Part shown: positions 1,339-31,124 of the stretch, piece by piece
Numbering within the stretch: the first letter of the stretch is position 1
Layout of the letters: each line of letters opens with the position of its first letter
Virus record (IMG/VR): IMGVR_UViG_3300044641_001258
Location: 1-35,597 of that record
From: a virus
Length of the DNA stretch: 35,597 bases
Reading direction: 5' to 3' (one strand)
Program-made: the position numbers and the translations under genes
Notes under the pieces: generated by a model
What the model saw: the letters and a program-made list of their open reading frames with translations, nothing else
What the model was told of the DNA's origin: nothing
The model's database searches: none

Positions 1339-1710
1339 ATGAGCTGCAATACAAGTACAAGCGCTGATTTAAGACCAGCGCAATATAACATAAAGATCTG
1401 GCGCAATGATAGCTGGGCGCAAACATTTGCACTATTAGCAGATGAGACACCTATAGATTTAACTGGTTGTACTATAGTGGTACAAGTAAGGACTAGCGCA
1501 GATGCGCCTACTGCTGCTTTGACACTAAGCACTACAGAGGGAACTATCAGCATAGGTGGAGTAAGCACTAATCAGATCACATTAAATAAAGTAGTTAATA
1601 TAGCTGCTGGATCTTATGTGTATGATATGAATGTGCATTTCCCTAGCGGAGAAGTTAAGACATATATTTGGGGTACATTTTTTGTTCAAGAAGATATAAC
1701 TAAGCCATAA
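1339..1710 (+). CDS. BppU-like baseplate / fibre-attachment protein
   Basis: A 123-residue beta-rich protein. It shows the hallmarks of the BppU N-terminal domain (upper baseplate protein family): an opening strand with 'RNDSWAQTFAL', then 'PIDLTGCTIVVQVR', a middle 'ITL' strand, and 'AAGSYVYDMNVHFPSGEVKTYIWGTFFVQEDIT' near the end. In lactococcal phages this domain anchors receptor-binding proteins to the baseplate. Here it sits immediately before the long tail fibre gene, whose ATG overlaps its stop codon by one base, so the two are probably translationally coupled and physically associated. Confidence 0.65.
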   Translation: MSCNTSTSADLRPAQYNIKIWRNDSWAQTFALLADETPIDLTGCTIVVQVRTSADAPTAALTLSTTEGTISIGGVSTNQITLNKVVNIAAGSYVYDMNVHFPSGEVKTYIWGTFFVQEDITKP

Positions 1711-4700
1711 TGGAGATAGTAAATGTTACAGATCAGATAATAGAGGTAAATGTCACTAATGATATAGTTAATATCCAGGTACAAACTGGTGCTTATCCTT
1801 TGCCTAATAATGTGTACTCAGTATTTGGTAGAGTAGGCAATGTAGTAGCTACAGAGGGAGATTATACATTAAATCAATTAAGCGGAGTAACTATCGCTAG
1901 TCCAGTGAGTGGACAAGTGTTAAAATATAACGGATCAGCGTGGGTGAATACATCTGAGGATAATCCAGTGACTAGCGTATTTGGTAGAACTGGTGTAGTA
2001 ACTGCGCAGACTGGTGACTATAATACTGATCAAGTAGGTGAGGGATTGATTAATCAATACTACACCAATGCTAGAGCAAGAGCAGCTATTAGCGAGAATA
2101 TAACTGGTATGGAGTATTCTAGTGCTAGTGGTATTTTTAGTTTGGCTAGTGGATATGTTATCCCTACTCAAGCTATGCTAGATGCTAAAGTGCCTTATAC
2201 TGGCGCTACTGGGAATGTTAATTTAGGAGAATATCAGTTATCTGCTGGGCAAGTTACATTTGATCAGACACCTACTGGCACTGCTGGTGTGGGTGTGATG
2301 AGATGGAATGATACAGATGGTACATTAGATGTAGGCTTAAAGGGTGGTAATGTTACCTTACAAGTAGGCCAGGAGATGGTGGCTAGAGTAGTGAATAAGA
2401 CTGGCGCTGATTTATTAGAGGCTAATTATCAAGCGGTGAGAATATCATCTGCCCAGGGCCAAAGATTAGCAGTGCAACTAGCCCAGGGAAATAATGATTT
2501 AAATAGCGTAGATACTATTGGTATAGTTACTGAGACTATCACAAATAATCAAGAAGGTTTTATCACTATATTAGGACAAGTAAAAGAAATTAATACAACT
2601 GGATCTATCCAGGGTGAAACATGGGTAGATGGAGATGTATTATATTTAAGTCCTAGCGTAGCTGGTGGTATTACAAATGTAAAGCCATCCGCTCCTAATC
2701 ATATGTTAGTGATAGGATATGTAGAGTACGCACATGCTCAGCATGGTAAAATTTATGTTAAGGTACAAAATGGATATGAGCTTGAGGAGCTTCATGATGT
2801 AGCACCTTTGCCATATATTAATAATGGAGTATTATATAGAGATACTACTACTAATTTATGGAAATCTGCTACTATTGGTACTTTATTAGGATATACACCA
2901 GTAACAAGTGCTAGAACAATTAGCACTACTGCACCTTTGACTGGTGGTGGTGATTTATCTGCTAATAGAACATTAGCAATTACTCAAGCTGGTGCTAGCG
3001 CAGATGGATACTTATCTAGCACAGATTGGAATACATTTAATAATAAAGAGAATGCAGTAACTGCTGGTACAAGCGCACAATATTATAGAGGTGATAAGAC
3101 TTTCCAAACATTAGATACATCTGTAGTACCAGAGAATACAAATCTATATTATACAGATACAAGAGCAAGAGCCGCAATTAGTGGTACTGCTCCTATTAGT
3201 GTAGTGTCTGGTGTGGTAAGCATTAGCCAGGTTAGTGGATCATCTAATGGCTATTTGAGTAGTACTGATTGGAATACATTTAATAATAAGCAAGCTGCTT
3301 TAAATGGCACTGGCTTTGTTAAGATCAGTGGTACTACAATTAGCTATGATAATAGTACATATTTAACTACAATCAGTGGAATCTCTGCTGGCGGTGAATT
3401 AAGTGGTACTTATCCTAATCCTACATTAGTAACTAGTGCAGTAACTGGTAAGGCTTTGACTGGTTTAAATTTAACTGGTGGTGGCACAATCGCAGATACT
3501 GATACTATTTTAGGTGCATTTGGTAAGGTGCAAAATCAGATCAGTGCTTTAGTAGGTGGAGTAATGTACCAGGGTACATGGAATGCAAGCACAAATAGTC
3601 CTAGCATTACATCTAGCGTAGGTACAAAAGGTCACTATTATATCGTGTCTGTAGCTGGTAGCACTAACATTAATGGTATTACAGATTGGAAAGTGGGTGA
3701 CTGGATCATCTTTAATGGTACTACATGGGATAAGGTAGATAATACAGATGCAGTAAGTTCCGTAAATGGATATACTGGTGCAGTGAGTTTGGTTACAAGT
3801 GATGTAGCAGAGAGTGGATCTTTATATTTTACAAACGCTAGAGCAATAGGATCTACATTAACTGGCTATACTAGTGGAGCTGGTACGATCAGTTCAAGCG
3901 ATAGCATCTTAACTGCAATACAAAAATTAAATGGTAATATAGGATCTTTAGTAACTGGTGTAAGTAGCGTATTTGGCCGTACTGGTGCAGTAACTGCGCA
4001 AAGTGGTGACTATACTACTACTCAAGTAACTGAGGGTACAAATTTATATTATACACAAAGTAGATTTGATACTGCCTTTAGTGGTAAGACTACTACTAAT
4101 TTAACAGAGGGTATAAACTTATATTATACAGAGGGCAGAGTAAGTGCGAATACAGATGTGGCTGCTAATACTGCTGCTAGGCATGCTGCCGTAACATTAG
4201 GCACTGCTAATGGTTTAAGTTTAAGTACTCAGCAATTATCTTTAGGATTGGCATCATCTACTACAAATGGTGCTTTATCTAGCACAGATTGGAGTACATT
4301 TAATGCTAAGCAGTCTGCTTTGACATTTGGCAATTTAACAGAGAGTACAAGCTCAGTACTTACTATCACTGGTGGATCTGGATCTGTTATCGGATCTGGG
4401 ACTACTATCCAGGTAAAGCAAGCATCTGGATCACAGAGTGGATTTTTATCTAGCACTGATTGGAGTACATTTAATAGTAAGCAAAATGCATTAACTAATC
4501 CAGTAACTGGAACTGGTACAACAAACTACCTACCTAAGTTTACAGGTACAAGTACTTTAGGTAATAGTATAATTAGTGAAAGCGGAAGTGCAATTAGTAT
4601 AGCTGGTAGTGTAAAATCAGATGGGACATCTTCTGAAGGTAAATTCATTATTGAAAGAGATTCAGTAGCTACTAATACAATTATTGGCTCATTGGACTTT

Positions 4701-5765
4701 ACAAATAATAATGCTGCTACTACATACGGAAAAGTATTTGGTGGAAGAAATAGTGCTGGTGATGGATATGTTGCATTAGGAACTGGAGTTTCAAATAATT
4801 TATACGCTTTAGAAACTGGTAATGTAGGAATTGGTACAAATTCACCAAATGCTAAATTGGATGTATTAGTAGCATCAAATAATAAAATACAAATTGGTAC
4901 TGGTATTGTTGGTAGTAATGGTGAATATGTAGGTGGATTTTATTATACTTCTAATAAATTATTAATAGAATCCTTTTTAGTTGGAACTGGATATCAGCCA
5001 GTTTTAATTGCACCTAATGGTGGAAATGTTGGAATAAGTACAAGTAGTCCACAAAGGTTATTAGATGTAAGAGGACCAGTTAATTTATCAAATACTACAC
5101 CAACAATAGGTAGTACATCTGGTGCATATGCAGATGTACATTTAAGAACTTTTAGCGGTTATCCATCTGCTCAAGCAAAAATTGTGGTAGTAGATTATTG
5201 GATGGATTTTTATTCAACTTATACAGATGGGTTTAGATGGTTTAATTATAATTCTGCTGGTACTTCACCAGTTGAGAGAATGAGAATTTCATCAAATGGC
5301 AGTGTTTGTATAAACAATACTGATACAGATGAGGTAGCATTGCATGTGCATGGTAACAATACAACATCTGGAACTGCTCAATTTAGAAATCCAAGTAAAG
5401 GAGGTAATGCATCACATTTACATTATGGCACATATGGAGATTGGTATATCAGACCAGCTAATAATTCTGGTTCTGTGTATGTTAAAAACTATGTAGCTGA
5501 ATCAGATGCAAGATTAAAAGATAATATTGAAAATATATCTTATGGATTAAATGAGATATTAAATTTAAAACCTCGTAAATTTAACTGGAAAGAATCAACT
5601 AATGAGGTAAATGGATTTATTGCTCAAGAAGTAGAGGAAATCATACCAGCTTTAGTCAATGAAGGGCAATGGAAGTCTGTAGATTACCAGGGTATAACTG
5701 CAATAGTAGTTAAAGCAATCCAGGAATTATCAGCAAAATTAACTGCATTAGAAAATAAAGCATAA
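1710..5765 (+). CDS. Long modular tail fibre with S74 intramolecular chaperone
   Basis: At 1351 residues this is the largest protein of the phage. The body is a chain of short beta-rich modules: 'VFGR.G.V.A..GDY...QV' (three clear copies), 'YYT..RARAAIS'-type linkers, and 'YLSSTDWNTFNNKQ' (four copies). The C-terminal about 90 residues form a Peptidase_S74 chaperone: 'ESDARLKDNIENI' begins at residue 1264, with the predicted self-cleavage serine at S1265 and the following lysine K1270, and ends in 'NGFIAQEVEEIIPALV'. Such domains trimerise the fibre and then cut themselves off. It is almost certainly the host-recognition fibre. Codon use becomes visibly more A/T-rich after about 4560, suggesting a swapped distal module. 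Confidence 0.88.
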   Translation: MEIVNVTDQIIEVNVTNDIVNIQVQTGAYPLPNNVYSVFGRVGNVVATEGDYTLNQLSGVTIASPVSGQVLKYNGSAWVNTSEDNPVTSVFGRTGVVTAQTGDYNTDQVGEGLINQYYTNARARAAISENITGMEYSSASGIFSLASGYVIPTQAMLDAKVPYTGATGNVNLGEYQLSAGQVTFDQTPTGTAGVGVMRWNDTDGTLDVGLKGGNVTLQVGQEMVARVVNKTGADLLEANYQAVRISSAQGQRLAVQLAQGNNDLNSVDTIGIVTETITNNQEGFITILGQVKEINTTGSIQGETWVDGDVLYLSPSVAGGITNVKPSAPNHMLVIGYVEYAHAQHGKIYVKVQNGYELEELHDVAPLPYINNGVLYRDTTTNLWKSATIGTLLGYTPVTSARTISTTAPLTGGGDLSANRTLAITQAGASADGYLSSTDWNTFNNKENAVTAGTSAQYYRGDKTFQTLDTSVVPENTNLYYTDTRARAAISGTAPISVVSGVVSISQVSGSSNGYLSSTDWNTFNNKQAALNGTGFVKISGTTISYDNSTYLTTISGISAGGELSGTYPNPTLVTSAVTGKALTGLNLTGGGTIADTDTILGAFGKVQNQISALVGGVMYQGTWNASTNSPSITSSVGTKGHYYIVSVAGSTNINGITDWKVGDWIIFNGTTWDKVDNTDAVSSVNGYTGAVSLVTSDVAESGSLYFTNARAIGSTLTGYTSGAGTISSSDSILTAIQKLNGNIGSLVTGVSSVFGRTGAVTAQSGDYTTTQVTEGTNLYYTQSRFDTAFSGKTTTNLTEGINLYYTEGRVSANTDVAANTAARHAAVTLGTANGLSLSTQQLSLGLASSTTNGALSSTDWSTFNAKQSALTFGNLTESTSSVLTITGGSGSVIGSGTTIQVKQASGSQSGFLSSTDWSTFNSKQNALTNPVTGTGTTNYLPKFTGTSTLGNSIISESGSAISIAGSVKSDGTSSEGKFIIERDSVATNTIIGSLDFTNNNAATTYGKVFGGRNSAGDGYVALGTGVSNNLYALETGNVGIGTNSPNAKLDVLVASNNKIQIGTGIVGSNGEYVGGFYYTSNKLLIESFLVGTGYQPVLIAPNGGNVGISTSSPQRLLDVRGPVNLSNTTPTIGSTSGAYADVHLRTFSGYPSAQAKIVVVDYWMDFYSTYTDGFRWFNYNSAGTSPVERMRISSNGSVCINNTDTDEVALHVHGNNTTSGTAQFRNPSKGGNASHLHYGTYGDWYIRPANNSGSVYVKNYVAESDARLKDNIENISYGLNEILNLKPRKFNWKESTNEVNGFIAQEVEEIIPALVNEGQWKSVDYQGITAIVVKAIQELSAKLTALENKA
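1819..4486 (+). repeat. Diverged repeats inside the tail fibre gene
   Basis: DNA-level repeats are visible: 'gattggaatacatttaataa' and close variants at about 3010-3050, 3250-3291, 4270-4313 and 4443-4484, and the 'gtatttggtagaactggt' type at about 1819-1880, 1976-2040 and 3967-4031. They encode the DWNTFNNK and VFGRTG protein modules. Copies differ at many third positions, so they are old duplications rather than fresh ones. Confidence 0.8.
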
Positions 5766-10349: not shown

Positions 10350-10737
10350 ATTTTATTAGTAAATCTATATAATGTTTAGCCTTCTTTAAATCTTCTATTC
10401 CATTTTTATCCTTATGTCTTACTACATACTTAATGATATTGCCTTCTATAAATGATAAGTTATTAGCATGGATAAATTCTGTAGGTTGGATCTTTAATTT
10501 TTTATAATGGCTACCTCCTATTTGATCATTGGTAGGTGATTCTTCTTTTACATAAGGTAATTCTTCTTTTATATATTCTTGAAAAGCATGAATAAACCAT
10601 CCATCGTAAATAGTTCCTATAGGATAATAACTATTTTCAATTACTACCTTTCCTTTAAAAAAATCTTTATCCTTTATTTCTAAGCATTCTAATATTACAC
10701 CAGTGCCTAAGGATTTATATAATTTACCTACCTCCAT
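10321..10737 (-). CDS. DUF3310 protein
   Basis: A 138-residue protein. The C-terminal 70 residues are a typical DUF3310 domain: 'DQIGGSHYKKLKIQPTEFIHANNLSFIEGNIIKYVVRHKDKNGIEDLKKAKHYIDLLI', with the signature GGxHYK, IQP and NIIKYVxRHKxKNGxEDLxKAxHY. Function is not established; it is often annotated as a nucleotide-kinase-like protein. The first 65 residues form a separate beta-rich domain ('KLYKSLGTGVILECLEIKDKDFFKGKVVI...'), probably a small SH3-like fold, fused to it. One-base overlap with the exonuclease gene upstream. Confidence 0.8.
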   Translation of the reverse strand: MEVGKLYKSLGTGVILECLEIKDKDFFKGKVVIENSYYPIGTIYDGWFIHAFQEYIKEELPYVKEESPTNDQIGGSHYKKLKIQPTEFIHANNLSFIEGNIIKYVVRHKDKNGIEDLKKAKHYIDLLIKFEYEDPKKL

Positions 10738-11468
10738 TATTTATCAGTTTTAGTAGTATAATGATTACAAGTCTTGCACTTATAAACTATTCTTTTAGTT
10801 CCAGATGCTAATACTCTATTAGAATGCTTGATCAAATCATCTGATCCACAATTAGCGCATGTACCTCTATCCTCACCAAACACCACACCATAGTGTGTTT
10901 TAGCTGGTATGTGTGTACTCAAATGCTCATGCACTTTTTGTAATAAAACTACATCCATCTTGCAATACTTAACCATTTTATCTAGCGCCTTCATGTCATT
11001 CTTTAAAGCTATATCTTTCCAGAGATCAAAATCTGTTTTGATTTTCTGACCAATGCCTAAAAAGTCTGCTATATAATTTAGCCTATTGCTATTAAATTTA
11101 AATTTTGATCTAGCTACTTTTAAAGTATCTATGGTAGTGTAGTTAGGAAACATTTGAATCCCATGAAATAAACATCTAGTGCGAATCCATGCAAGATCAA
11201 ATTTATCTCCATTATGCCCTACCAGCTCATCTGCGCTATCTACTATCTTAATAAAATCTTGCAGCATCTTTTTATCACTTTGCTTTTTATCCCAGGTCAA
11301 TGCTTGCACATCCTTCTCACCTTCCCACTTATAGCAAATGCAAATGATCGCTCTTTCTTTTAAGATGTTTTGATAGCCAATATTTAATTTATACCCAGAC
11401 TGCCAAAAGAATCCGATATTTGGACTTGTCTCTATGTCAAAGTATAATCGTTTTCTTTTGGTAGCCAT
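10737..11468 (-). CDS. DnaQ-like 3'-5' exonuclease with C-terminal zinc ribbon
   Basis: A 243-residue RNase H-fold exonuclease. ExoI is 'FDIETSP' at residues 10-16 (D11, E13), ExoII is 'GHNGDKFD' at 84-91, and ExoIII is 'YCKMDV' at 168-173 (D172), giving the four acidic metal ligands. The last about 40 residues contain two CxxC knuckles (C204/C207 and C231/C234), a zinc ribbon likely to bind DNA. There is no polymerase domain in the protein or elsewhere in the genome, so it is more likely a recombination or end-processing nuclease than a proofreading subunit. It lies 13 bases after the PD-(D/E)XK nuclease gene. Confidence 0.85.
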   Translation of the reverse strand: MATKRKRLYFDIETSPNIGFFWQSGYKLNIGYQNILKERAIICICYKWEGEKDVQALTWDKKQSDKKMLQDFIKIVDSADELVGHNGDKFDLAWIRTRCLFHGIQMFPNYTTIDTLKVARSKFKFNSNRLNYIADFLGIGQKIKTDFDLWKDIALKNDMKALDKMVKYCKMDVVLLQKVHEHLSTHIPAKTHYGVVFGEDRGTCANCGSDDLIKHSNRVLASGTKRIVYKCKTCNHYTTKTDK

Positions 11469-18438: not shown

Positions 18439-18564
18439 ATGGCAAAGGCAAAAGGCAATGATTCAAAAAAGCAAACATTTGGAAAGCGCAAATGTGGATC
18501 ACCAAAAAAGAGTTATAATAAACATACACCAAAACCGAAAGCATATCGTGGCCAGGGAAAATAA
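18439..18564 (+). CDS. Small basic protein (41 aa)
   Basis: A frame of 41 codons from ATG at 18439 to TAA at 18562-18564. The product is rich in Lys, Arg and Gly (MAKAKGNDSKKQTFGKRK, then a Cys and 'SPKKSYNKHTPKPKAYRGQGK'). I recognise this general pattern from small genes near the packaging region of Bacteroidetes phages, and a nucleic-acid-binding role is likely. The alternative is that the glycosyltransferase frame extends through this region, but that N-terminal extension does not look like glycosyltransferase sequence. Confidence 0.55.
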   Translation: MAKAKGNDSKKQTFGKRKCGSPKKSYNKHTPKPKAYRGQGK

Positions 18565-19573
18565 CACAATACAAGTACTGGGCATTACTCAGAAGGTTAG
18601 CGGATGTGGATGGCATAGAGTGCTATTGCCATTAGCATTTTTACCAGATTCATATAATCATGTATGTAATGTACCTACAGAAGAGATCCTACAAGAAAGG
18701 CAATTTGATATACTATTGTATAACAGATTCTCTCCATTTGATCAAAACTGGGATGAGACAAAGAAGCACTTTAAAATAGTGATGGATATGGATGATGACT
18801 GGGATCTACCCTATAATCACCCATTACATAAATTCTACGCACCTCAAAGAGAGCGAGTGATCAATAACATTAACTATGCTGATCTGGTGACATGCACTAA
18901 TGAAAGGCTGGCGCAAAAGCTTAGGCAGTATCATGATAAGGTGGTAATACTACCTAACTGCATACCATTGGGCCAGCATCAATACACAGAGGATAAGAAG
19001 CCTAGTGATAAGGTGAGACTATTCTGGGCTGGTGGATCTACGCACATGGATGACATCAAACTATTGAAAGGTCCAGTAAAGAGGCTGCATCACTTTGATA
19101 ATATAGAGATGGTGCTAGGTGGATATACTGATAGTGATCCAGTGAGTAAGCAGTACTGGGATCAGCTATGGAGTTTATTTACAGATGGTGGCAGACTACC
19201 AAATAAAAAGCTAGCAAGCACTTTGCCAAATGCATACATGAGCCATTTTGAAGAGGCAGATATTATGCTCATACCTTTGCAAGAGAGTGATTGGCATGCA
19301 TGCAAGAGTAATCTAAAGATATTAGAGGCAGCAAGTAAGAGAGTGCCATGCATAGTGAGTAAGGTGCAGCCATATAGCATGGATGCAGATGCACCAGTGC
19401 TATGGGTAGAGAGCCAAAAAGATTGGTACAAACATTTAACATATTTAATTAACAATCCAGAGGAAAGGATCAAGATGGGTAATGATCTTTATAACTGGGC
19501 CAAAACAAAATACAATTATGAGCATATCAGTAAACTTAGGAGAGAAGCATATGCAGACCTTATTAAAGCATAA
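18548..19573 (+). CDS. GT-B glycosyltransferase
   Basis: From the GTG at 18548 the product is about 341 residues ('VARENNTIQVLGITQKVSGCGWHRVLLPL...'). It has the two-domain layout of GT-B enzymes with a Glycos_transf_1-type C-terminus: 'VVILPNCIPLGQH', 'KVRLFWAGGSTHMDDIKLL', 'ADIMLIPLQESDWHACKSNLKILEAASKRVPCIVSKVQPY' (sugar-nucleotide site with a conserved Glu), and 'NPEERIKMGNDLYNWAKTKYNYEH'. It probably transfers a sugar to a phage or host component. The frame is open back to 18458 but that part overlaps the small basic gene, so the GTG is preferred. First gene of a three-enzyme glycan cassette. Confidence 0.78.
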   Translation: MARENNTIQVLGITQKVSGCGWHRVLLPLAFLPDSYNHVCNVPTEEILQERQFDILLYNRFSPFDQNWDETKKHFKIVMDMDDDWDLPYNHPLHKFYAPQRERVINNINYADLVTCTNERLAQKLRQYHDKVVILPNCIPLGQHQYTEDKKPSDKVRLFWAGGSTHMDDIKLLKGPVKRLHHFDNIEMVLGGYTDSDPVSKQYWDQLWSLFTDGGRLPNKKLASTLPNAYMSHFEEADIMLIPLQESDWHACKSNLKILEAASKRVPCIVSKVQPYSMDADAPVLWVESQKDWYKHLTYLINNPEERIKMGNDLYNWAKTKYNYEHISKLRREAYADLIKA

Positions 19574-19760
19574 GCATTTTTATGATCTATTTATTAAGAG
19601 CGGTGAGCTGGTAGGATTTACGCATGAGATCCAGAATGAGCTACTAGAAATTTATAAGCTGGTAGATCCGATCTACACTTATAATAACAGATGTGGCGCA
19701 TGCGTTGGTACATTCTTAGTGAATGTCTATAAAACATTTAAAGATCAAATAGCACTATGA
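19551..19760 (+). CDS. Hypothetical protein with CxxC
   Basis: From ATG at 19551 the product is 69 residues ('MQTLLKHKHFYDLFIKSGELVGFTHEIQNELLEIYKLVDPIYTYNNRCGACVGTFLVNVYKTFKDQIAL'-type pattern, not quoted in full run). It is helical with one CGAC motif. I recall short proteins of similar build near terminase genes of Bacteroidetes phages, always of unknown role. It overlaps the glycosyltransferase end by 23 bases and the acyltransferase start by four. Confidence 0.55.
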   Translation: MQTLLKHKHFYDLFIKSGELVGFTHEIQNELLEIYKLVDPIYTYNNRCGACVGTFLVNVYKTFKDQIAL

Positions 19761-20245
19761 ATTATATACATCCGACTGCGATTGTTTACGACAATGTTAA
19801 ATTGATTGGAGATAATATCTACATTGGTCCATATTGCATTATAGGTGGTATGGCTGAGCATAAGGCTTACTGGGATAAGACACCTGGTGGAGTGATTATA
19901 AATGAAGGATGCGTAATTACTGGGCATGTGACTATAGATGCTGGCACAGAGAAAAATACATATATCTCAAATGATGTCTGGATCTTAAAGCATGCGCATG
20001 TGGGCCATGATTGCTTTATAGGATCTAATTGCGTGATATCATGTGGAGCAAAAATCGGAGGGCATACTACATTGCATCATACATGTAATATAGGACTAAA
20101 TGCAGTGATCCATCAAAAGCAAGAGATAGCGCCAGGCTGCATGATCGGTATGGGTGCAGTGGTAACTAAAAAATTAATAACTAAGCCTTACCAGAAATAT
20201 GCTGGCAATCCAGCAAAGTGGCTAGGCCCAAATGAGGTAAAATGA
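19757..20245 (+). CDS. Left-handed beta-helix (LpxA-like) acyl/acetyltransferase
   Basis: A 162-residue protein made almost wholly of hexapeptide repeats: 'IHPTAIVYDNVKLIGDNIYIGPYCIIGG', 'GCVITGHVTIDAGTEKNTYISNDVWILKHAHVGHDCFIGSNCVISCGAKIGGHTTLHHTCNIGLNAVI', ending in 'GAVVTKKLITKPYQKYAGNPAKWLG', the usual close of sugar acetyltransferases. The H-x-x-x-G-H residues near 'KHAHVGHD' correspond to the catalytic histidine in LpxA-type enzymes. It likely acylates a sugar nucleotide or glycan, cooperating with the flanking glycosyltransferases. Four-base overlaps on both sides mark it as part of one operon. Confidence 0.82.
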   Translation: MNYIHPTAIVYDNVKLIGDNIYIGPYCIIGGMAEHKAYWDKTPGGVIINEGCVITGHVTIDAGTEKNTYISNDVWILKHAHVGHDCFIGSNCVISCGAKIGGHTTLHHTCNIGLNAVIHQKQEIAPGCMIGMGAVVTKKLITKPYQKYAGNPAKWLGPNEVK

Positions 20246-20853
20246 AAGTACTAATAGCATGTCTGGTATATGGCAGTAGGCCGCTAGATATATTAGAGCA
20301 TAATATTAAGAGCGCTGGTTATGTGGCAGACTATGTACTGATCAATAGAGAAGGCATAGCTAATGCATTAAACGAAGCCATAGACATAGCTGGTGCAGAT
20401 GGGTATGATGCGATAGCCTATCTAGCGAATGACATCAAAGAGCCAGAGAACTGGCTAGCTAAAAAGGTTGAGGCATTAAAAAGCTACCCATTTGCTGGGA
20501 TCGTAGCAAGCAGCTTAGACAATGTGAGATATACTGCACAGAGCGAGCATATTATATCAAACTGGCTACTATCTATGAAGGTCGTAGATAAGATTGGCAT
20601 ATTCAATGAGCAGATGTTCCCATATGGTCCAATAGACCTGGATTATTGTGAGCGTGCTAACCTAGCTGGATTTTATACATACTATGTGATAGACTGCATG
20701 GCAGAGCATATCGGATCACATGCAACTGGTAATGAGTATGGCTGGGATAAAGGTGAGCTGGTGAATAAGTACTGGCAGATGCATGTGGATGATATTACTG
20801 CTTATAGAAACGGATCAAAAAATTTAAAGATATGGAAGCAAGAGAACATGTAA
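20242..20853 (+). CDS. GT-A (family 2-like) glycosyltransferase
   Basis: A 203-residue protein with a GT-A pattern: 'MKVLIACLVYGSRP', a short acidic loop 'YLANDIKEPENWL' in the place of the metal-binding DxD region, 'ASSLDNVRYT', and 'PYGPIDLDYCERANLAGFYTYYV', which corresponds to the (E/D)DxDxxxR acceptor-side motif of family 2 enzymes, followed by 'AEHIGSHATGNEYGW'. At this length it is a minimal catalytic domain without membrane segments. It ends 22 bases inside the small terminase gene. Confidence 0.72.
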   Translation: MKVLIACLVYGSRPLDILEHNIKSAGYVADYVLINREGIANALNEAIDIAGADGYDAIAYLANDIKEPENWLAKKVEALKSYPFAGIVASSLDNVRYTAQSEHIISNWLLSMKVVDKIGIFNEQMFPYGPIDLDYCERANLAGFYTYYVIDCMAEHIGSHATGNEYGWDKGELVNKYWQMHVDDITAYRNGSKNLKIWKQENM

Positions 20854-23214: not shown

Positions 23215-23827
23215 TGGAGCTGATTTTGGCGGTGAAGATATAGCCGAATTTGGAGTAGTGAATGGAGTTATAGAGCAATATGGCGCTACTCTATTGACTA
23301 ATATAGATAAATTCGCTAAGGCAAAATCATTAACTGCATCTGGTGAATTATTGAGCAATATGATCCCAGAGATAGTTAATGAGAATGGCATTACTATCTT
23401 TAGATTAAGGATGCTGGATTATTATGATTACCCAAATGAAGGGGTAAAGGGTGTTAATTCCAGTGCGAATGCTCCTAATTCACCATATAAGTATAAAAAT
23501 TATGGCATGCCAGAATCTGGCAGAGCATCACTAAAAAGATATATATTAAGTGGAAAGGCTAAGGTGAGTAGTGTGATGAATGACAAAGCATTAGGAATAG
23601 GTGGTGAGAGAAAGGGTGTGAGATTTGCAGAAAAAAAGACATTAATAGATAGGCAAGTAGATACGCTAGCTTACCTTATTAAGCGTTTTGGTATTAAGAC
23701 TACTAACTATTTCACAGATGCCTTTAATGAGACATTTAGAGATTTTGAGGTTAAAATGGCGGAAGCCTTAGAGACTGATATAGTAATAACATTTGAAAGA
23801 ATAAATAAGAGAAATGGCAATAAGTAA
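23171..23827 (+). CDS. Neck / tail completion protein candidate
   Basis: A 218-residue protein. Features such as 'TASGELLSNMIPEIVNENGITIFRLRMLDYYDYPNEGVKGVNSS', then 'APNSPYKYKNYGMP' and 'TLAYLIKRFGIKTTNYFTDAFNETFRDFEVKMAEALETDIVI' recall HK97 gp10-like neck proteins: a two-strand sheet around 'LDY...G(V/R)', followed by 'AFxI...GI.ptnFf..af'. It likely helps join head and tail. It overlaps the chaperone extension by 44 bases and the next gene by 14. Confidence 0.6.
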   Translation: MSININRAQREALASGADFGGEDIAEFGVVNGVIEQYGATLLTNIDKFAKAKSLTASGELLSNMIPEIVNENGITIFRLRMLDYYDYPNEGVKGVNSSANAPNSPYKYKNYGMPESGRASLKRYILSGKAKVSSVMNDKALGIGGERKGVRFAEKKTLIDRQVDTLAYLIKRFGIKTTNYFTDAFNETFRDFEVKMAEALETDIVITFERINKRNGNK

Positions 23828-24947
23828 TTTAGCATATCCATCTGGTACACCAACTTGTCAAGATGCCTTATGGCATGTATTTAATACCAGCGTGACTGGT
23901 GTAACAGATTTTAGATATGTATTTGATGTATTTGTAGGAGGTGTGCAGCAATCTAGGGTGAAGATTTACCCAGAGCCATCTAATAATAAGGGGTACTTTG
24001 ATGCTGGGCCTATTGTGCGTAATACCATGACTTTTGATTGGTTTGAGCCTACAGATAATATCTTGACATCTGAGCCTAATGTAAGTGGCCAGGCAGCTCA
24101 GACCTACCAATATAGAATCGGTGAAGAATATAGCGGTGTAACATATTTAAACTTAGTAAGTGGTAATGTGACTGCATATAATTGGAGCGCACCTTTACTA
24201 AAAAGAAGAGTATCTGATATTACTGCATATAGCAATAAGGCAATGACTACCAGACCAGCTAAGATAAATGCAAGCATAGGTGATAATATATTCATTGGCG
24301 CTAAGGATGTATCTGGTTTGACTATTGTAACATATAACCAGAATAATACACAGATCACTAGCACTACATTTAACCTAGGTGGTGTTAAGCCATTTGCTGA
24401 GCTTAATATAGGATCACCAGCATTAAATAAATCTACTACCATCATAGATAGCAGCGTTAAATATTATACTGCTACTATTGGTACATCTGTATTCACTATT
24501 TACTTAGACTGCAATCCAAAGTACACTAGCTATAATCTACATTTTATGAATAGATTAGGCATGTTTGATACTGCTAAATTTGGTTTGGCTAGCAGATTGA
24601 ATCTTAATGTAGATAGGAAAGAATTTGAGAAGAGAGACTATACATTAGGATCTAATAGTGTGACATATTATAACACAAACAATAAGTATAATGCTGGTAA
24701 AGTTAATTACTTGAATCAGCGTGATTATGTGTGGAGATTGACCATGGATGCGCCTACAGATGCAGAGTATGAATGGTTAGAAGAGTTAATCTACTCACCT
24801 CAGATTTTTATGGAGATAGAGGGATATTATTACCCAGTAACTATTGCATTAAATAATTTTGAGATTAGCAAGTATGTAAATAATAGATTAAGAGTATTAG
24901 AGTTAGATGTAAAGATGAATACTAAAAGATATAGCCAATTAAGATAA
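23814..24947 (+). CDS. Tail / baseplate structural protein
   Basis: A 377-residue beta-rich protein. The segment 'LDCNPKYTSYNLHFMNRLGMFDTAKFGLASRLNLNVDRKEFEK' and the later 'LEELIYSPQIFMEIEGYYYPVTIALNNFEISKYVNNRLRVLELDVKMN' are of a kind that recurs in Bacteroidetes phages directly upstream of a large baseplate protein; I infer a distal-tail-like or baseplate component. No catalytic motif. Ends one base before the next gene. Confidence 0.55.
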   Translation: MAISNLAYPSGTPTCQDALWHVFNTSVTGVTDFRYVFDVFVGGVQQSRVKIYPEPSNNKGYFDAGPIVRNTMTFDWFEPTDNILTSEPNVSGQAAQTYQYRIGEEYSGVTYLNLVSGNVTAYNWSAPLLKRRVSDITAYSNKAMTTRPAKINASIGDNIFIGAKDVSGLTIVTYNQNNTQITSTTFNLGGVKPFAELNIGSPALNKSTTIIDSSVKYYTATIGTSVFTIYLDCNPKYTSYNLHFMNRLGMFDTAKFGLASRLNLNVDRKEFEKRDYTLGSNSVTYYNTNNKYNAGKVNYLNQRDYVWRLTMDAPTDAEYEWLEELIYSPQIFMEIEGYYYPVTIALNNFEISKYVNNRLRVLELDVKMNTKRYSQLR

Positions 24948-24948
24948 T

Positions 24949-27900
24949 ATGACTAGAATATTTATAGAGGGATATGAGCTTGATTTAACAGAAGGTCTTA
25001 GTAACCAGATTACTTATGCTATTGATGATCTACAAAATCTAGATAGCAAGAGTACATCATTTACTAAGACTATCGTACTTCCTGGCACTACTAATAATAA
25101 CAAATTATTAGGTAACATTTTTGAGTTTAATAGCTCAAACTTTTATAATCCAGCTAGTGATAATGTTTTATATAATTTTAATGCTGCCGTTAATGCAAAT
25201 GCCAGAATAGAATTAAATGGCTTGCAGATCATGAAAGGTGTACTAAGATTAATAGAGATTATACAAAATGGAGATGCAGTAGAGTATGAATGTGCGATCT
25301 TTGGTGAGCTAGGTGGATTTGTTACTGCATTAGGTAATAAGAGACTAGAGGATCTAGATTTTAGTGCATATGATCATACCTATAATGTATCTAGCATTGT
25401 TGGTAGCTGGACTAATACACCAGGATCTGGGTACTGCTATCCATTGATAGATTATGGTAATGTAAGTACTGGTGCATATGGTACTGCAAAAAAAGACTTT
25501 CAATTCAATACATTTAAGCCAGCCTTATATGTAAAAGAATATCTAGATAAGATTTTTGCTGGATCTGGATATACATATGATTGCCCATTTTTTAGCGAGG
25601 CTAAATTCAAGAGATTAATTATACCAAATAACCAGGCTATTCTACAAAAGAATAGTAATGTGCAATTAGAAGCCACACCAGAGCTAAAGGCTTATACTGG
25701 ATCTGGCTCTGCGTTTAATTTGAGCTTTGTATCTACCACATTAGGTAGCTTTACTTTGACTAGCTCAAATACTTTATTTACTTATACTGGTACATCTAAA
25801 GCAATGAACTTAACCTTTAGATTAAATGGTATTTGGGTGCTAGGTAATGCTGCTAATGTAAGATTAAAAAAGAATGGCACTACTATAGCTAGCTATTTTA
25901 TTGGCACTGGCTTTAGTTCAAATTACTTTAATTTAACATTATCATCAAGTAATAATACTATTAACAATGGTGATACATTGCAAGTATCTGTAGAATGGAC
26001 TGGATCAGTAAGCTATCAGATGCAAGTGCTAGATGGTGCTTTTGATATTAGCACTACTACAAGTAGTCTAGTGCCTATTAACTATAATGAATCATTACAG
26101 ATTAATAATACTATTCCTAAGGGTATATTTCAAAAAGATTTCTTTATCTCTATATTGAAGATGTTTAATCTTTTAGTGACTGAGGATAAGTATAAAACTA
26201 ATCATTTGATTATATCACCTTATGTGGATTTCTGGGATGGTAGCCAGGTAGATTGGAGTAATAAGCTTGATAGAGAGAAGGTGATCAAGCAAAAGCCAAT
26301 GAGTGAGATAAATGCTAGATATTACAATTTAAAATATAAACAAGATAACGACTACTACAATGAAGAATATCGTAAAAAATATAGTGAGGGATATGGTGAT
26401 AGGATCTACGATAATGGTCTTGAATTTGTTAAGGATACTGAACAAGTAGAGGTTATCTTTAGTGCATCTGTATTATATGGTGCAACTGGTCAAGATAAAG
26501 TATTTCCAGCTATTTATAAAAAGTCTAATGAAAATACTAAAGAGGATCCAATGGATCACAATTTGCGTATTATGCAGACATCATATCAAACTGGTGTTAC
26601 ATCATGGACTATTTATAACGGAGCTACAAGCTTAACATCTAGAACAGATTATCTTTATGCTGGGCATTTAGATGATCCAGATGCTCCTACTCAAGATATT
26701 AACTTTGGTGCGCCTCAGCAGCTTTATTTTACATTGGCTACTGGTGATCTAAGTAATAACTTATTTAATACATACTACTCTACTTATTTAGCTGAGATCA
26801 CAGATAAAGATAGTAGATTATTAACTGGATATTTTAAGCTTACAGATCAAGATATTTTCGATCTTGACTTTGGTAGATATGTGCATATAGATGGAGGCTT
26901 GTATAGATTAAGCAAAGTGGTAGATTTTACACCAGAGGCTAATGATCTTACAAAGGTTGAGCTATTAAGAGTAATAGAGAAAAATATAGCTACTTATGAT
27001 AGTACTCCTATATTTGCATCTCAAAACTATAATACTTGTGTATCTTGTAATACTTACATAGTTTATAGAGATGTGAATCCTTACTCTGCTACTTTTAATG
27101 AGTATAGAGTTAATGGGGTAAATGTGGGCCTTACACCTCCTACAAACGGAGCTTGTAATACTGCTGCACAATGGACCAGCCAAAGTTATTATAGCTGTTA
27201 TAATTGTGTGGATTCTTTAGTGTATAGAGATACGAATGTATGCTCTCCTACCTATAATAATTACAGAGTAAACGGAGTGAATGTAGGTAATACTGCACCA
27301 TTAGAAAGCACTTGTAATTTTGTACCTAACTGGGTAAGCCAGGGGTATAATACATGCTCAAATTGTAATACTTACTTAGTTTATAGAGATACTAATCCAT
27401 GCTCTCCCAGCTATAATAATTATAGAGTAAATGGAGTGAATGTAGGAAATACTGCGCCATCAAATGGTGCGTGTGTAACTACTGCACAATGGACTAGCCA
27501 GGGGTATAATACATGCTCTGGGTGTGTGACTTATTTAGTGTATAGAGATACTAATCCATGCTCTGCTACTTATAATAATTACAGAGTAAATAATATTAAT
27601 GTAGGTAATACTGCTCCTAGCAATGGTGCGTGTAATTATACTGCAAACTTAACAAGCCAGGGTTATTATACTTGCTATGCATGTCAAAACTACTTAGTAT
27701 ATAGAGATACTAATCCATGCTCTGCTACTTATAATAATTATTTTAGAGGTGGTGTAAATGTGGGTAATACTGCTCCACCTAGTGGGGATTGTAATGGATC
27801 ACCTATCTTAACTAGCCAGGGTTATACGACATGCTGGGGATGTACTGAGTATATCGTTTATAGAAATACTAATCCATGCTCTCTTACTTACTTGCATTAC

Positions 27901-28542
27901 TATGTAGGTGGTGAGGACCAGGGTACAACTGCACCAGTAGATGATTCTTGTAATTATAGTGCTAACTGGGTTAATCAAAACTTTACTACTTGTATAGGAT
28001 GTACGAATTATATAGTATATAGAGATTTGAATATATGCTCAGCTACTTACTTAAATTACCAAGTAAATGGTACTAATGTAGGCAATACTGCGCCATCAAG
28101 TGTACCATGTAATACTGCGCCTAACTATGTTAATGATGGATCAAATACTATATGTATGGGATATGATCTACATCAAAGAACTATAGATAATAATCCATGC
28201 TCTTCTACTTATGGATTCACTGGTGTAGGCGCATTGATCCAGGCTAATTCTCCATCATGTGGATACACTACTGCTACTTTTAGTGGTAGAGCATCACTTA
28301 TAGGATCAGCAGAGGTTTGCGCTGGTGGTGAGTATGGTAGTATATCTATCCAGGTAGTAGGTACTAATATGTGCGATTGTACTCAAGTAATTAGCTTACC
28401 TAGTGCAGTTTGGGCAGATATGCTTACAGATGATGAATTCTGGTTACAACAAAGAATAGGTGGTGTATTTAAATATAGAAAGTTTAGGAGAAACGGATCA
28501 GCAAATAGTGCAGTACCTATAGAAGCGTGCGGAGATTGTTAA
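24949..28542 (+). CDS. Large baseplate protein with cysteine-rich tandem repeats
   Basis: A 1197-residue protein. Residues 1 to about 685 form the structural part: it opens 'MTRIFIEGYELDLTEGLSNQITYAIDDLQNLDSKSTSFTKTIVLPGTTNNNKLLG', typical of Bacteroidetes-phage baseplate hub or tail-associated proteins, and includes a 'GIFQKDFFISILKMFNLLVTEDKYKTNHLIISPYVDF' hub-like core. Residues 686-1106 are about eight cysteine-rich 53-residue repeats. The last about 90 residues form a distinct Cys-containing cap (ATFSGRASLIGSAEVC...PIEACGDC). No signal peptide is present. The repeats probably project from the tail tip and may bind the host surface. The cysteines imply disulphides formed after release, or metal binding. 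Confidence 0.72.
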   Translation: MTRIFIEGYELDLTEGLSNQITYAIDDLQNLDSKSTSFTKTIVLPGTTNNNKLLGNIFEFNSSNFYNPASDNVLYNFNAAVNANARIELNGLQIMKGVLRLIEIIQNGDAVEYECAIFGELGGFVTALGNKRLEDLDFSAYDHTYNVSSIVGSWTNTPGSGYCYPLIDYGNVSTGAYGTAKKDFQFNTFKPALYVKEYLDKIFAGSGYTYDCPFFSEAKFKRLIIPNNQAILQKNSNVQLEATPELKAYTGSGSAFNLSFVSTTLGSFTLTSSNTLFTYTGTSKAMNLTFRLNGIWVLGNAANVRLKKNGTTIASYFIGTGFSSNYFNLTLSSSNNTINNGDTLQVSVEWTGSVSYQMQVLDGAFDISTTTSSLVPINYNESLQINNTIPKGIFQKDFFISILKMFNLLVTEDKYKTNHLIISPYVDFWDGSQVDWSNKLDREKVIKQKPMSEINARYYNLKYKQDNDYYNEEYRKKYSEGYGDRIYDNGLEFVKDTEQVEVIFSASVLYGATGQDKVFPAIYKKSNENTKEDPMDHNLRIMQTSYQTGVTSWTIYNGATSLTSRTDYLYAGHLDDPDAPTQDINFGAPQQLYFTLATGDLSNNLFNTYYSTYLAEITDKDSRLLTGYFKLTDQDIFDLDFGRYVHIDGGLYRLSKVVDFTPEANDLTKVELLRVIEKNIATYDSTPIFASQNYNTCVSCNTYIVYRDVNPYSATFNEYRVNGVNVGLTPPTNGACNTAAQWTSQSYYSCYNCVDSLVYRDTNVCSPTYNNYRVNGVNVGNTAPLESTCNFVPNWVSQGYNTCSNCNTYLVYRDTNPCSPSYNNYRVNGVNVGNTAPSNGACVTTAQWTSQGYNTCSGCVTYLVYRDTNPCSATYNNYRVNNINVGNTAPSNGACNYTANLTSQGYYTCYACQNYLVYRDTNPCSATYNNYFRGGVNVGNTAPPSGDCNGSPILTSQGYTTCWGCTEYIVYRNTNPCSLTYLHYYVGGEDQGTTAPVDDSCNYSANWVNQNFTTCIGCTNYIVYRDLNICSATYLNYQVNGTNVGNTAPSSVPCNTAPNYVNDGSNTICMGYDLHQRTIDNNPCSSTYGFTGVGALIQANSPSCGYTTATFSGRASLIGSAEVCAGGEYGSISIQVVGTNMCDCTQVISLPSAVWADMLTDDEFWLQQRIGGVFKYRKFRRNGSANSAVPIEACGDC
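27004..28266 (+). repeat. Cys-rich 159-bp tandem repeats, about 8 copies
   Basis: Seven full units and one degenerate unit of about 53 codons. Consensus by eye: 'W.SQGYNTC..C.TYLVYRD' then 'TNPCS.TYNNYRVNGVNVGNTAP..G.CN'. Four cysteines per unit: a CxxC pair, one in NPCS and one closing each unit. Unit 1 has tyrosine instead of the third cysteine; unit 8 loses most of the pattern. Units 3 to 5 are closest at the DNA level. Confidence 0.88.
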
Positions 28543-28561: not shown

Positions 28562-30175
28562 ATGGCAACTAAAAAGACAACAATAGCAGCAGAGATACAG
28601 ATCAAGCCTGGTGATTCTGCTAAAACAATAGGAGATTTAAGGAATGAATTGAATGAGATCCCAAAGGCAGCCAGTAAAGCTGCTGAGGGATCTATAGCTC
28701 AATTAAAAGAATTAAAGAAGCAGTTAAAAAATACTGCTGCTGGATCTGAGGAATTTAAGAATTTATTTAATCAAATTGATGATTTAGAGGATAAGTTAAA
28801 AGGATCTAAAAAGGCATCTGCTGACTGGATAGATACTTTAGAAAGCGCTGGTGGTCCTATTGGTGCTTTAGGTGGTGCATTAAATAAAGCTAAGGTAGCT
28901 ACTACATCTTTTGGAGCTGCTTTAAAAGCTACTGGTATAGGTTTAATAGTTTCTTTAGTAGCTGGACTAGCTGCCGCATTTGCTAAAAATGAGGATGCTA
29001 TGAAAAAGCTAGAGCCAGTATTTACGCAATTTGGTAGGATCTTAAATGGTGTATTAGGAGCTATGAAGCCTTTAATAGATGGCTTTATAAACTTAGCTAC
29101 TAAAGCTTTGCCATATGTAAGCAAAGCATTTGAGGTAGCCTATAGCTCATTATCTGCATTCTTACAAAGTTTAGGTAAAGTAGGTGAGGCAGTAGGCAAA
29201 ATATTAAAAGGTGATTTTAAGGGTGCGTGGGAAAGTGCTAAAAGCTCAGTAACAGATTTTAGTAAAAATTATAATGAATCTCAAAAAGGATTTATATCTG
29301 GTACTCAAGAATTAACAAACAAAGAGAAAGAGGAGGCAGAAAAAAGAAGATTACTAAGAGAGGCTGAATTAGAAAAACAAAAAAAGCTTAATGATGAAAA
29401 ACTGGCAGAAGAGCAAAGATTACAAGATGAGCTATTAAAACAAGAAATAGCTGAATATGAAAAAAGACAAAAGCAGCGTAAAAAATTAAGCACAGAAACT
29501 ATAGGTCTAGATGGTTTAACTGATACAGAAAGAAAGGAAAAAGAAAAAATGGATGCTGATAGAAAGGCATTCGTTGAAAAGAAAAAACTAGAATTAACAG
29601 AGGATCTAAATAAAAAACTTGAAAATGGCACTATAAAGCTTAACCAGTCCACTTTAATAAGTGACATGGAGACCACTAATGCTAAAATAAAACTAGCAGA
29701 AGAGGAGAGGCAATATAGAGTAGGAGCAGCATTAGACATCTCAAGTGCTATGCAATCTTTGGGATCTATTGTAGGAGAGCAGACTGCTGCTGGTAAGGCA
29801 TTAGGTGTAGCATCTGCTTTGATTAATACCTATATTGGAGCATCTGAGGTAATTAGAGCAAAATCTGTAATCCCAGAGCCATTTGGTACTATTTCTAAGA
29901 TTGCCAATGTAGCAGCTATTGTAGCTACTGGTTTAAAGGCAGTTAAGTCTATCACATCTGTGCAAGTGCCAGGATCATCTGGTGGCGGTGGAGGTCAAAA
30001 TATTAATAGCAATTTTGCAGCTCCATTATCACCTCAAGCATCTGTAACTACTTTAAATCAAGCTCAAGTTAATCAGATTGGTAATATTGCAGCTAAAGCA
30101 TATGTGGTAGAGAGTGATGTAACTGGTAACCAGGAGAGAATCAGAAGATTAAATAGAGCAGCTAGAATAAGCTAA
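28562..30175 (+). CDS. Tail tape measure protein
   Basis: A 537-residue protein with tape-measure features: an N-terminal coiled-coil ('DLRNELNEIPKAASKAAEGSIAQLKELKKQLKNTAAGSEEFKNLFNQIDDLEDKLK'), a hydrophobic glycine/alanine segment ('FGAALKATGIGLIVSLVAGLAAAFAKN') around residues 115-145, a Glu/Lys/Arg coiled coil at about 250-370, and a C-terminal hydrophobic 'AAGKALGVASALINTYIGASEVIRAK...ISKIANVAAIVATGLKAVKSI' block. At roughly 0.15 nm per residue this predicts a tail near 80 nm. It lies after the baseplate protein and before the head protease, an unusual placement. Confidence 0.82.
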   Translation: MATKKTTIAAEIQIKPGDSAKTIGDLRNELNEIPKAASKAAEGSIAQLKELKKQLKNTAAGSEEFKNLFNQIDDLEDKLKGSKKASADWIDTLESAGGPIGALGGALNKAKVATTSFGAALKATGIGLIVSLVAGLAAAFAKNEDAMKKLEPVFTQFGRILNGVLGAMKPLIDGFINLATKALPYVSKAFEVAYSSLSAFLQSLGKVGEAVGKILKGDFKGAWESAKSSVTDFSKNYNESQKGFISGTQELTNKEKEEAEKRRLLREAELEKQKKLNDEKLAEEQRLQDELLKQEIAEYEKRQKQRKKLSTETIGLDGLTDTERKEKEKMDADRKAFVEKKKLELTEDLNKKLENGTIKLNQSTLISDMETTNAKIKLAEEERQYRVGAALDISSAMQSLGSIVGEQTAAGKALGVASALINTYIGASEVIRAKSVIPEPFGTISKIANVAAIVATGLKAVKSITSVQVPGSSGGGGGQNINSNFAAPLSPQASVTTLNQAQVNQIGNIAAKAYVVESDVTGNQERIRRLNRAARIS

Positions 30176-30209
30176 AAGTACACATACCTCAAAAATTATA
30201 TTTAATATT

Positions 30210-31124
30210 ATGGATTTACCTATTTACGAATTAAAAATACAAGAGGATCTAGGTGATAGCGCTGAGGTATCATACATTGCATTGGTGGATAAGCCAGCTA
30301 TTCAAAAGGATTTTGTAGTATTTAATCAAGATTTTGCTGAGGATAGCTATACAGACTATCCAGAATCTGCAAAGAATGCTGCTGAGCGTGGGATCAGATT
30401 AAATGATGAGCTTAATAATAAATGCGCTACTCAAGTAGGCAAAGTAAGAGCGCAGCAGATCATGAATGGAGAGCCTTTATCTAAAGAGACTATCAAGAGA
30501 ACATACTCATTTTTAAGTAGAGCAAAGGCATACTATAAGCCAGATGATAAAGAAGCATGTGGCACTATTAGCTACTTATTATGGGGTGGTGATTCTATGC
30601 TAAGATGGTGTGAAAGTAAAATGAATAATGAGGATTTTGCAAGCCTTAACATGAGCTTTGCAATCCAGGATGAAGATAAACATATTATATCTGGACCTTT
30701 GATGTTAGCAGATGAGCCTATCTACAGAAATAATAGCAAATTTGGTGAGCATTATGTGATCTTCAAGCCAGAGACAATTAAGGATATATCTATCAAATTT
30801 GCAAAGAAAGGCTATCAGCAAAATGTAAACTTGATGCATGATAGTGACATGAGATTAGATGGTCTGGTAATGTTTGAAAGTTTTATAGTAGATCGCTCTA
30901 GAGGTGTATTACCTATGGAGGGATTTGAAGATGCAAAGGATGGTAGCTGGTTTGGATCATTCTATGTAGAGAATCCTCAAGCATGGAAATTAATTAAAGA
31001 AGGTAAAGTAAAAGGATTCAGCGTGGAGGGATTTTTTGATTATGCTTTACCAGATAACAGAGAGAAAACATACGCAGAGCAGAAGCTAGCAGAGTTAGCA
31101 GAATTATTAAAAGTACCTTATTAA
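30210..31124 (+). CDS. XkdF-like head maturation serine protease with inserted domain
   Basis: A 304-residue protein. The C-terminal part fits the XkdF-type phage serine protease: 'QQNVNLMHDSDMRLDGLVMFESFIVDRSRG' with likely catalytic His in 'LMHD' and Ser in 'FESFI', then 'DGSWFGSFYVENPQAWKLIKEGKVKGFSVEGFFDY'. Between an N-terminal 'SYIALVDKPAIQKDFVVF' strand and the protease core lies an inserted helical domain (about residues 48-135: 'YPESAKNAAERGI', 'ATQVGKVRAQQIMNGEPLSKETIKRTYSFLSRA', 'CGTISYLLWGGDSMLRW'). It should cleave scaffold and possibly capsid during head assembly. Followed by scaffold and major capsid genes. Confidence 0.82.
   Translation: MDLPIYELKIQEDLGDSAEVSYIALVDKPAIQKDFVVFNQDFAEDSYTDYPESAKNAAERGIRLNDELNNKCATQVGKVRAQQIMNGEPLSKETIKRTYSFLSRAKAYYKPDDKEACGTISYLLWGGDSMLRWCESKMNNEDFASLNMSFAIQDEDKHIISGPLMLADEPIYRNNSKFGEHYVIFKPETIKDISIKFAKKGYQQNVNLMHDSDMRLDGLVMFESFIVDRSRGVLPMEGFEDAKDGSWFGSFYVENPQAWKLIKEGKVKGFSVEGFFDYALPDNREKTYAEQKLAELAELLKVPY

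Follow-up and report, generated by a model that had tools for sequence, protein, structure and literature searches.

We analysed the whole of IMG/VR record IMGVR_UViG_3300044641_001258 (positions 1 to 35,597), a stretch of 35,597 nt of virus DNA referred to here as the window. ORF 24949–28542 (+ strand) encodes a protein of 1197 residues, for which no significant match was found in Pfam, PHROGs, NCBIfam or the PDB sequences. Direct repeats with a period of 159 nt and 60–100% identity lie within this ORF, confirming the repeat array described in the original prediction. In the C-terminal part of the protein, seven 53-residue units are followed by a 46-residue variant unit and a 92-residue terminal domain (residues 1106–1197), the last being a feature beyond the repeats described earlier (Table 1). 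The seven units, each of exactly 53 residues, span residues 689–1059 (nt 27013–28125) and score 93–100 bits each by HMM. The eighth unit (residues 1060–1105, nt 28126–28263) scores 75 bits with a variant-unit HMM, in whose construction it was itself included, and 2.8 bits with the 53-residue model. Protein identity between the units of the window is 45–81%, far beyond chance. The array had been described as eight 53-residue repeats with four cysteines each; the length holds for the first seven units and the cysteine count for units 2–7, whereas units 1 and 8 have three cysteines each, C24 being absent from the former and C12 from the latter.

Table 1 The arm-bearing protein of the window and its neighbouring tail genes.
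Feature	Position	Strand	Remarks
Tail protein of 377 aa, upstream of the arm gene, possibly distal-tail like	23814..24947	+	Gene order only
Body	24949..26982	+	Residues 1–678; conserved, probable tail-tip/baseplate protein; whole protein in most relatives
Long-strand β block, probable C1q/TNF-like jelly roll	25645..26076	+	About residues 233–376, position inferred from strand pattern; AF2 pLDDT about 75–92; Foldseek
Junction	26983..27012	+	Residues 679–688; other phages end or carry poly-Thr linkers here
Unit 1	27013..27171	+	C9, C12, C48; Tyr in place of C24 (NPY)
Unit 2	27172..27330	+	Four Cys
Unit 3	27331..27489	+	Four Cys; in AF2 model
Unit 4	27490..27648	+	Four Cys; in AF2 model
Unit 5	27649..27807	+	Four Cys; in AF2 model
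Unit 6	27808..27966	+	Four Cys
Unit 7	27967..28125	+	Four Cys
Unit 8	28126..28263	+	Shorter variant type, without C12; HMM
Terminal domain, candidate tip	28264..28539	+	Residues 1106–1197; five Cys; CGDC end
Tape-measure protein gene	28562..30175	+	phrog_3336, E 8.7e-6

The region preceding the array, which we call the body, is flanked by tail genes. The tape-measure gene lies directly downstream of the arm gene, and the 377-residue protein encoded upstream had no PHROG or Pfam match. Elizabethkingia phage TCUEAP1 has a diverged homologue (23% identity, E 3e-6) and an identical gene order from the terminase to the tape measure, which suggests that the host of the window phage is a member of the Bacteroidota, probably of the Flavobacteriia. 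The full-length AF2 model is of moderate quality (pLDDT 67) and is best around residues 190–390. Foldseek matched part of the body in this model to the knob and petal domains of the central spike of Staphylococcus phage phi812 (PDB 9eul, E 4.5e-5, prob 1.00), with the repeat arm lying outside the fold match and no match at the sequence level. TNF/C1q jelly rolls score like 9eul (E range 2e-5 to 4.5e-5 for the two together), and the fold match alone is not specific to baseplates. Taken with the tape-measure neighbour and the gene order of TCUEAP1, it indicates that the body is probably a tail-tip or baseplate protein, in agreement with the baseplate assignment made previously, which would place the arm at the tail tip.

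We used AF2 to model three successive units (units 3–5, 26 aligned rows). The prediction is all β and free of disorder (pLDDT 95.6, pTM 0.69), in line with the ordered repeats expected from the original prediction, and has strands at positions 2–10, 13–19, 31–33 and 36–39 of each unit, such that each unit is predicted to form a small two-hairpin β-domain. No fold match to the repeats was found in the PDB (Foldseek best E 0.6). The best viral fold match was gp58 of Cellulophaga phage phi12:1 (E 0.2, prob 0.66), which may be a distant single unit and is taken as a lead only. This gp58 (L114:32584–35289; numbers with L denote our viral loci) is a structural protein adjoining the tape measure and carries a D.N..S.TYGQT motif between two cysteines.

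Cysteines were classified unit by unit throughout a non-redundant collection of arrays, in which 53 units have all four. C24 alone is missing from nine units, every one of them the first in its array (9/9), and is replaced by Y, N or S. C12 alone is missing from eight units, which lie at array ends save for one in L083 with an extra cysteine beside C48. By visual reading, all four cysteines are present in units 3 and 4 of L083 and in units 2 and 3 of L101. The solitary unit of L103 retains only C9 and C48, and in some short variant units C9 and C24 are the only ones of the four, so that C9 is available as a donor. Counting one array per lineage, C24 is missing in 7/7 first units and present in 49/49 others; a p-value that takes no account of common descent was set aside. 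The presence and absence of cysteines along the arrays thus predicts a C9–C48 disulphide within each unit and a bond from C12 of one unit to C24 of the next, with C9 as the donor where C48 is missing. The chain would begin with a unit lacking the acceptor (C24) and end with one lacking the donor (C12), which suggests that each domain is disulphide-linked to the following one. All 30 cysteines of the window array can be paired under this scheme, so that no unpaired cysteine speaks against the disulphide-rich repeats first proposed; the terminal domain has an odd number. A single loss of C24, passed on by descent, could also account for its absence from first units, although the residue in its place varies among three. 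From sequence, the rule predicts where adjacent domains of phage appendages are covalently joined, and would be the part of this work that a specialist finds surprising.

Comparison with arrays containing DUF5977 (PF19404) extends the rule beyond the units themselves. DUF5977 comprises small, cysteine-containing tandem domains of bacterial adhesins and phages, and has been classed among the stalk domains of bacterial fibrillar adhesins (PMC8286594). It belongs to another sequence family, and at the gathering-score criterion no DUF5977 was found in the window protein (Pfam) or in the window (profile search). Such domains occur in the same protein as our units in L103 (56.8 bits, alongside the solitary unit), in the gut phage csAssE-Sib and in L115, where the two kinds of domain appear to exchange donor and acceptor cysteines. 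A search for arrays combining the two returned none with a single sequence and L115 and L116 with an alignment. In csAssE-Sib, a 1503-residue protein with carbohydrate-binding and BACON annotation contains a string of DUF5977-like domains, identified by sequence pattern, that is broken by variant-type units (for the unit at 990–1030, i-E 4e-9 with the variant model and a search space of 1000). Three cysteines, with a CxxC or similar, are present in each of the three DUF5977-like domains that immediately precede a unit, whereas the other nine have two. Donor and acceptor occur together at four junctions and are both absent at 11, with no mismatch (Fisher p 7e-4). L115 has four paired and 12 empty junctions, again without mismatch (p 5e-4), two of its acceptors lying in DUF5977-like domains; for these domains the acceptor was defined after seeing L115, which is related to csAssE-Sib. 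One L115 domain has an extra cysteine outside the scheme. Together, the two proteins support, rather than prove, the staple rule.

The CxxC spacing of the units also accords with a metal-binding Cys4 knuckle (CxxC...C...C, zinc) that folds in the reducing cytoplasm and makes no disulphides, as do weak, non-significant Pfam matches to rubredoxin/zinc-ribbon-like families (E 0.07–0.15). However, a four-ligand site within the unit does not predict first units without C24, last units without C12 or a solitary unit with C9 and C48, and the donor–acceptor rule reaches the DUF5977 neighbours; we regard the knuckle as highly improbable. Whether the disulphide-stapled units constitute a new family of appendage repeats, built as a chain with start and end units, sharing its grammar with DUF5977 and drawn from a common pool of domains that can be shuffled into arms with every cysteine still paired, we judge to be evenly balanced.

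Our scan of viral contigs yielded 272 relatives; we retained 77 distinct loci, with matches mainly to residues 1–678. The protein stops near residue 675, with no arm, in about 57 of the 77 loci; a threonine-rich linker and other small domains in varying order follow the junction in 15, and the repeat arm is present in five, one of them cut off by the contig end. The C-termini of L011–L021, L023, L027, L029 and L040 have mucin-like Thr tracts (TTTTSTTTTTTT) joining small cysteine-containing domains, the order of which varies. One Thr-linked domain recurs (45% identity, E 2e-21) in the 67-kb phage contig L099, in a protein that has no body in common with the window. In a quick tree of the bodies the arm types are clustered, and the repeat arm requires at least four changes, forced by well-supported branches: L088, with repeats, is sister to L019, with poly-Thr (support 100), and L086, also with repeats, lies inside the poly-Thr clade. 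Thus, at a single junction, arm types have either replaced one another or been acquired and lost more than once, and on these comparisons the repeat arm is a swappable module, much as the original prediction had imagined a modular arm. Units also occur in unrelated phages, including the gut phage in which they alternate with DUF5977 domains, and the hitherto unannotated repeat family is found in small (~35 kb) phage contigs and in larger phages, as well as in a gut phage. A separate scan for the terminal domain found it in seven loci, and in L096 and L097 it is 82–85% identical to that of the window, although the bodies are only 49–51% identical. The junction is thus a hot spot on the probable tail-tip protein for swaps of whole arms, and it probably helps to decide what these uncultured phages adhere to.

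The earlier proposal of an adjustable copy number holds between lineages and fails within the window's own clade. Arrays contain five units in L096, eight in L097, ten in both L083 and L086 and seven in L088. L096 and L097 have bodies that are 93.5% identical and orthologous units 1–4, and L096 lacks units 5–7. Among close relatives of the window (96–97% identical), arm length is equal, the units correspond one to one and all complete members have eight in register; ongoing copy-number change in this clade was rejected. Amino acid identity between the window and L097 rises from 51% in the body to 69% in the repeats and 81% in unit 8 plus the terminal part. Four-fold sites are saturated alike in all three (34% in the body, 41% in the repeats and 47% in the terminal part), and we therefore rejected the idea that the arm had recently moved horizontally between the two. 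With synonymous sites equally saturated, constraint accounts for the arm's higher protein identity, and by this comparison the arm is more constrained than the body, unlike fast-evolving receptor-binding tips. Just downstream of the arm gene, the sequences point to strong mosaicism: across 28562–31124, L001, L002 and L003 have tape measures of 53–79% and proteases of 66–87% identity to those of the window, whereas their upstream genes and arm are 94–99% identical.

We propose that the repeats form an exchangeable, rigid, stapled arm of the tail-tip protein that projects the terminal domain and most likely attaches to the surface of the host or to glycans there, a reading that we hold to be somewhat probable. 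The disulphides would arise once the cell has lysed or when the protein is in the extracellular medium, the stapled chain would hold the terminal domain away from the tail tip, and that domain would be the part most likely to adhere. Modularity, exchange with Thr-rich arms, copy number, the cysteine rule and sharing among phages are read from sequences and the fold from prediction, while we infer disulphide formation, tail-tip position and adhesion.

The regular units and the staple chain would equally suit an arm with no binding of its own that acts only as a rigid spacer or stabilises the tail tip by hardening it. Many relatives live without an arm, and in Agrobacterium phage Milano a disulphide-rich virion is made robust by such bonds, reduction weakening the particle (PMC10491603). 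Yet unrelated multi-domain arms are swapped in at the same junction, and no part is better conserved between the window and L097 than the terminal domain, which suggests a ligand; a spacer alone seems unlikely. The resemblance to Milano lies in cysteine-rich virion proteins stabilised by disulphides, which are predicted in our case. In Milano the bonds join subunits of the capsid, neck, collar and sheath, whereas the bonds predicted for the arm connect consecutive domains within a single chain.

Modular adhesins that contain BACON and Ig-like domains are carried by Bacteroidota phages (PMC13370021). As proposed for those adhesins, the arm might stick to environmental or mucus-like glycans and not to a host receptor. 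The BACON-annotated and DUF5977 domains alongside units in csAssE-Sib fit this idea, as do the modular adhesins themselves, but the arm is carried by a tail-tip protein and not by the capsid, and we consider this quite unlikely. Like the Ig-like/BACON adhesins of gut Bacteroidota phages (PMC13370021) and the tentaclins (PMC10743442), the stapled arm would be a modular multi-domain adhesive appendage near structural genes. It differs in that its repeats are cysteine-rich, two-hairpin and fused to a tail-tip body, no BACON or Ig-like domain was found in the window protein by Pfam or NCBIfam, and no reverse transcriptase gene was seen among the window ORFs.

The original prediction had also linked the repeats to secreted proteins of Bacteroidetes. 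This was not borne out: two scans of bacterial genome contigs with narrow patterns gave 23 and 62 pattern matches, none confirmed by tblastn (in the second scan, two of the three seed rows were units joined end to end), and a plasmid search for the repeats returned nothing. The link to Bacteroidota adhesins is thus indirect and would run through the DUF5977 and BACON neighbours in other phages.

The window also encodes a separate tail fibre with an S74 chaperone (1710–5765), and receptor binding may in fact fall to this fibre. The stretch 18458–20853, upstream of the packaging genes, contains a weakly glycosyltransferase-like gene, a hexapeptide acyltransferase-like gene and a further putative transferase gene, with a possible role in surface modification. 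ARAGORN reported a tRNA-Ile(aat) at 10759–10856 (−), inside ORF 10737–11468, which is probably spurious. Finally, the open frame at position 1 (1–276) starts with about 42 residues that recur at the end of the frame closing at 35596, and from this overlap the record appears to be terminally redundant or circular.
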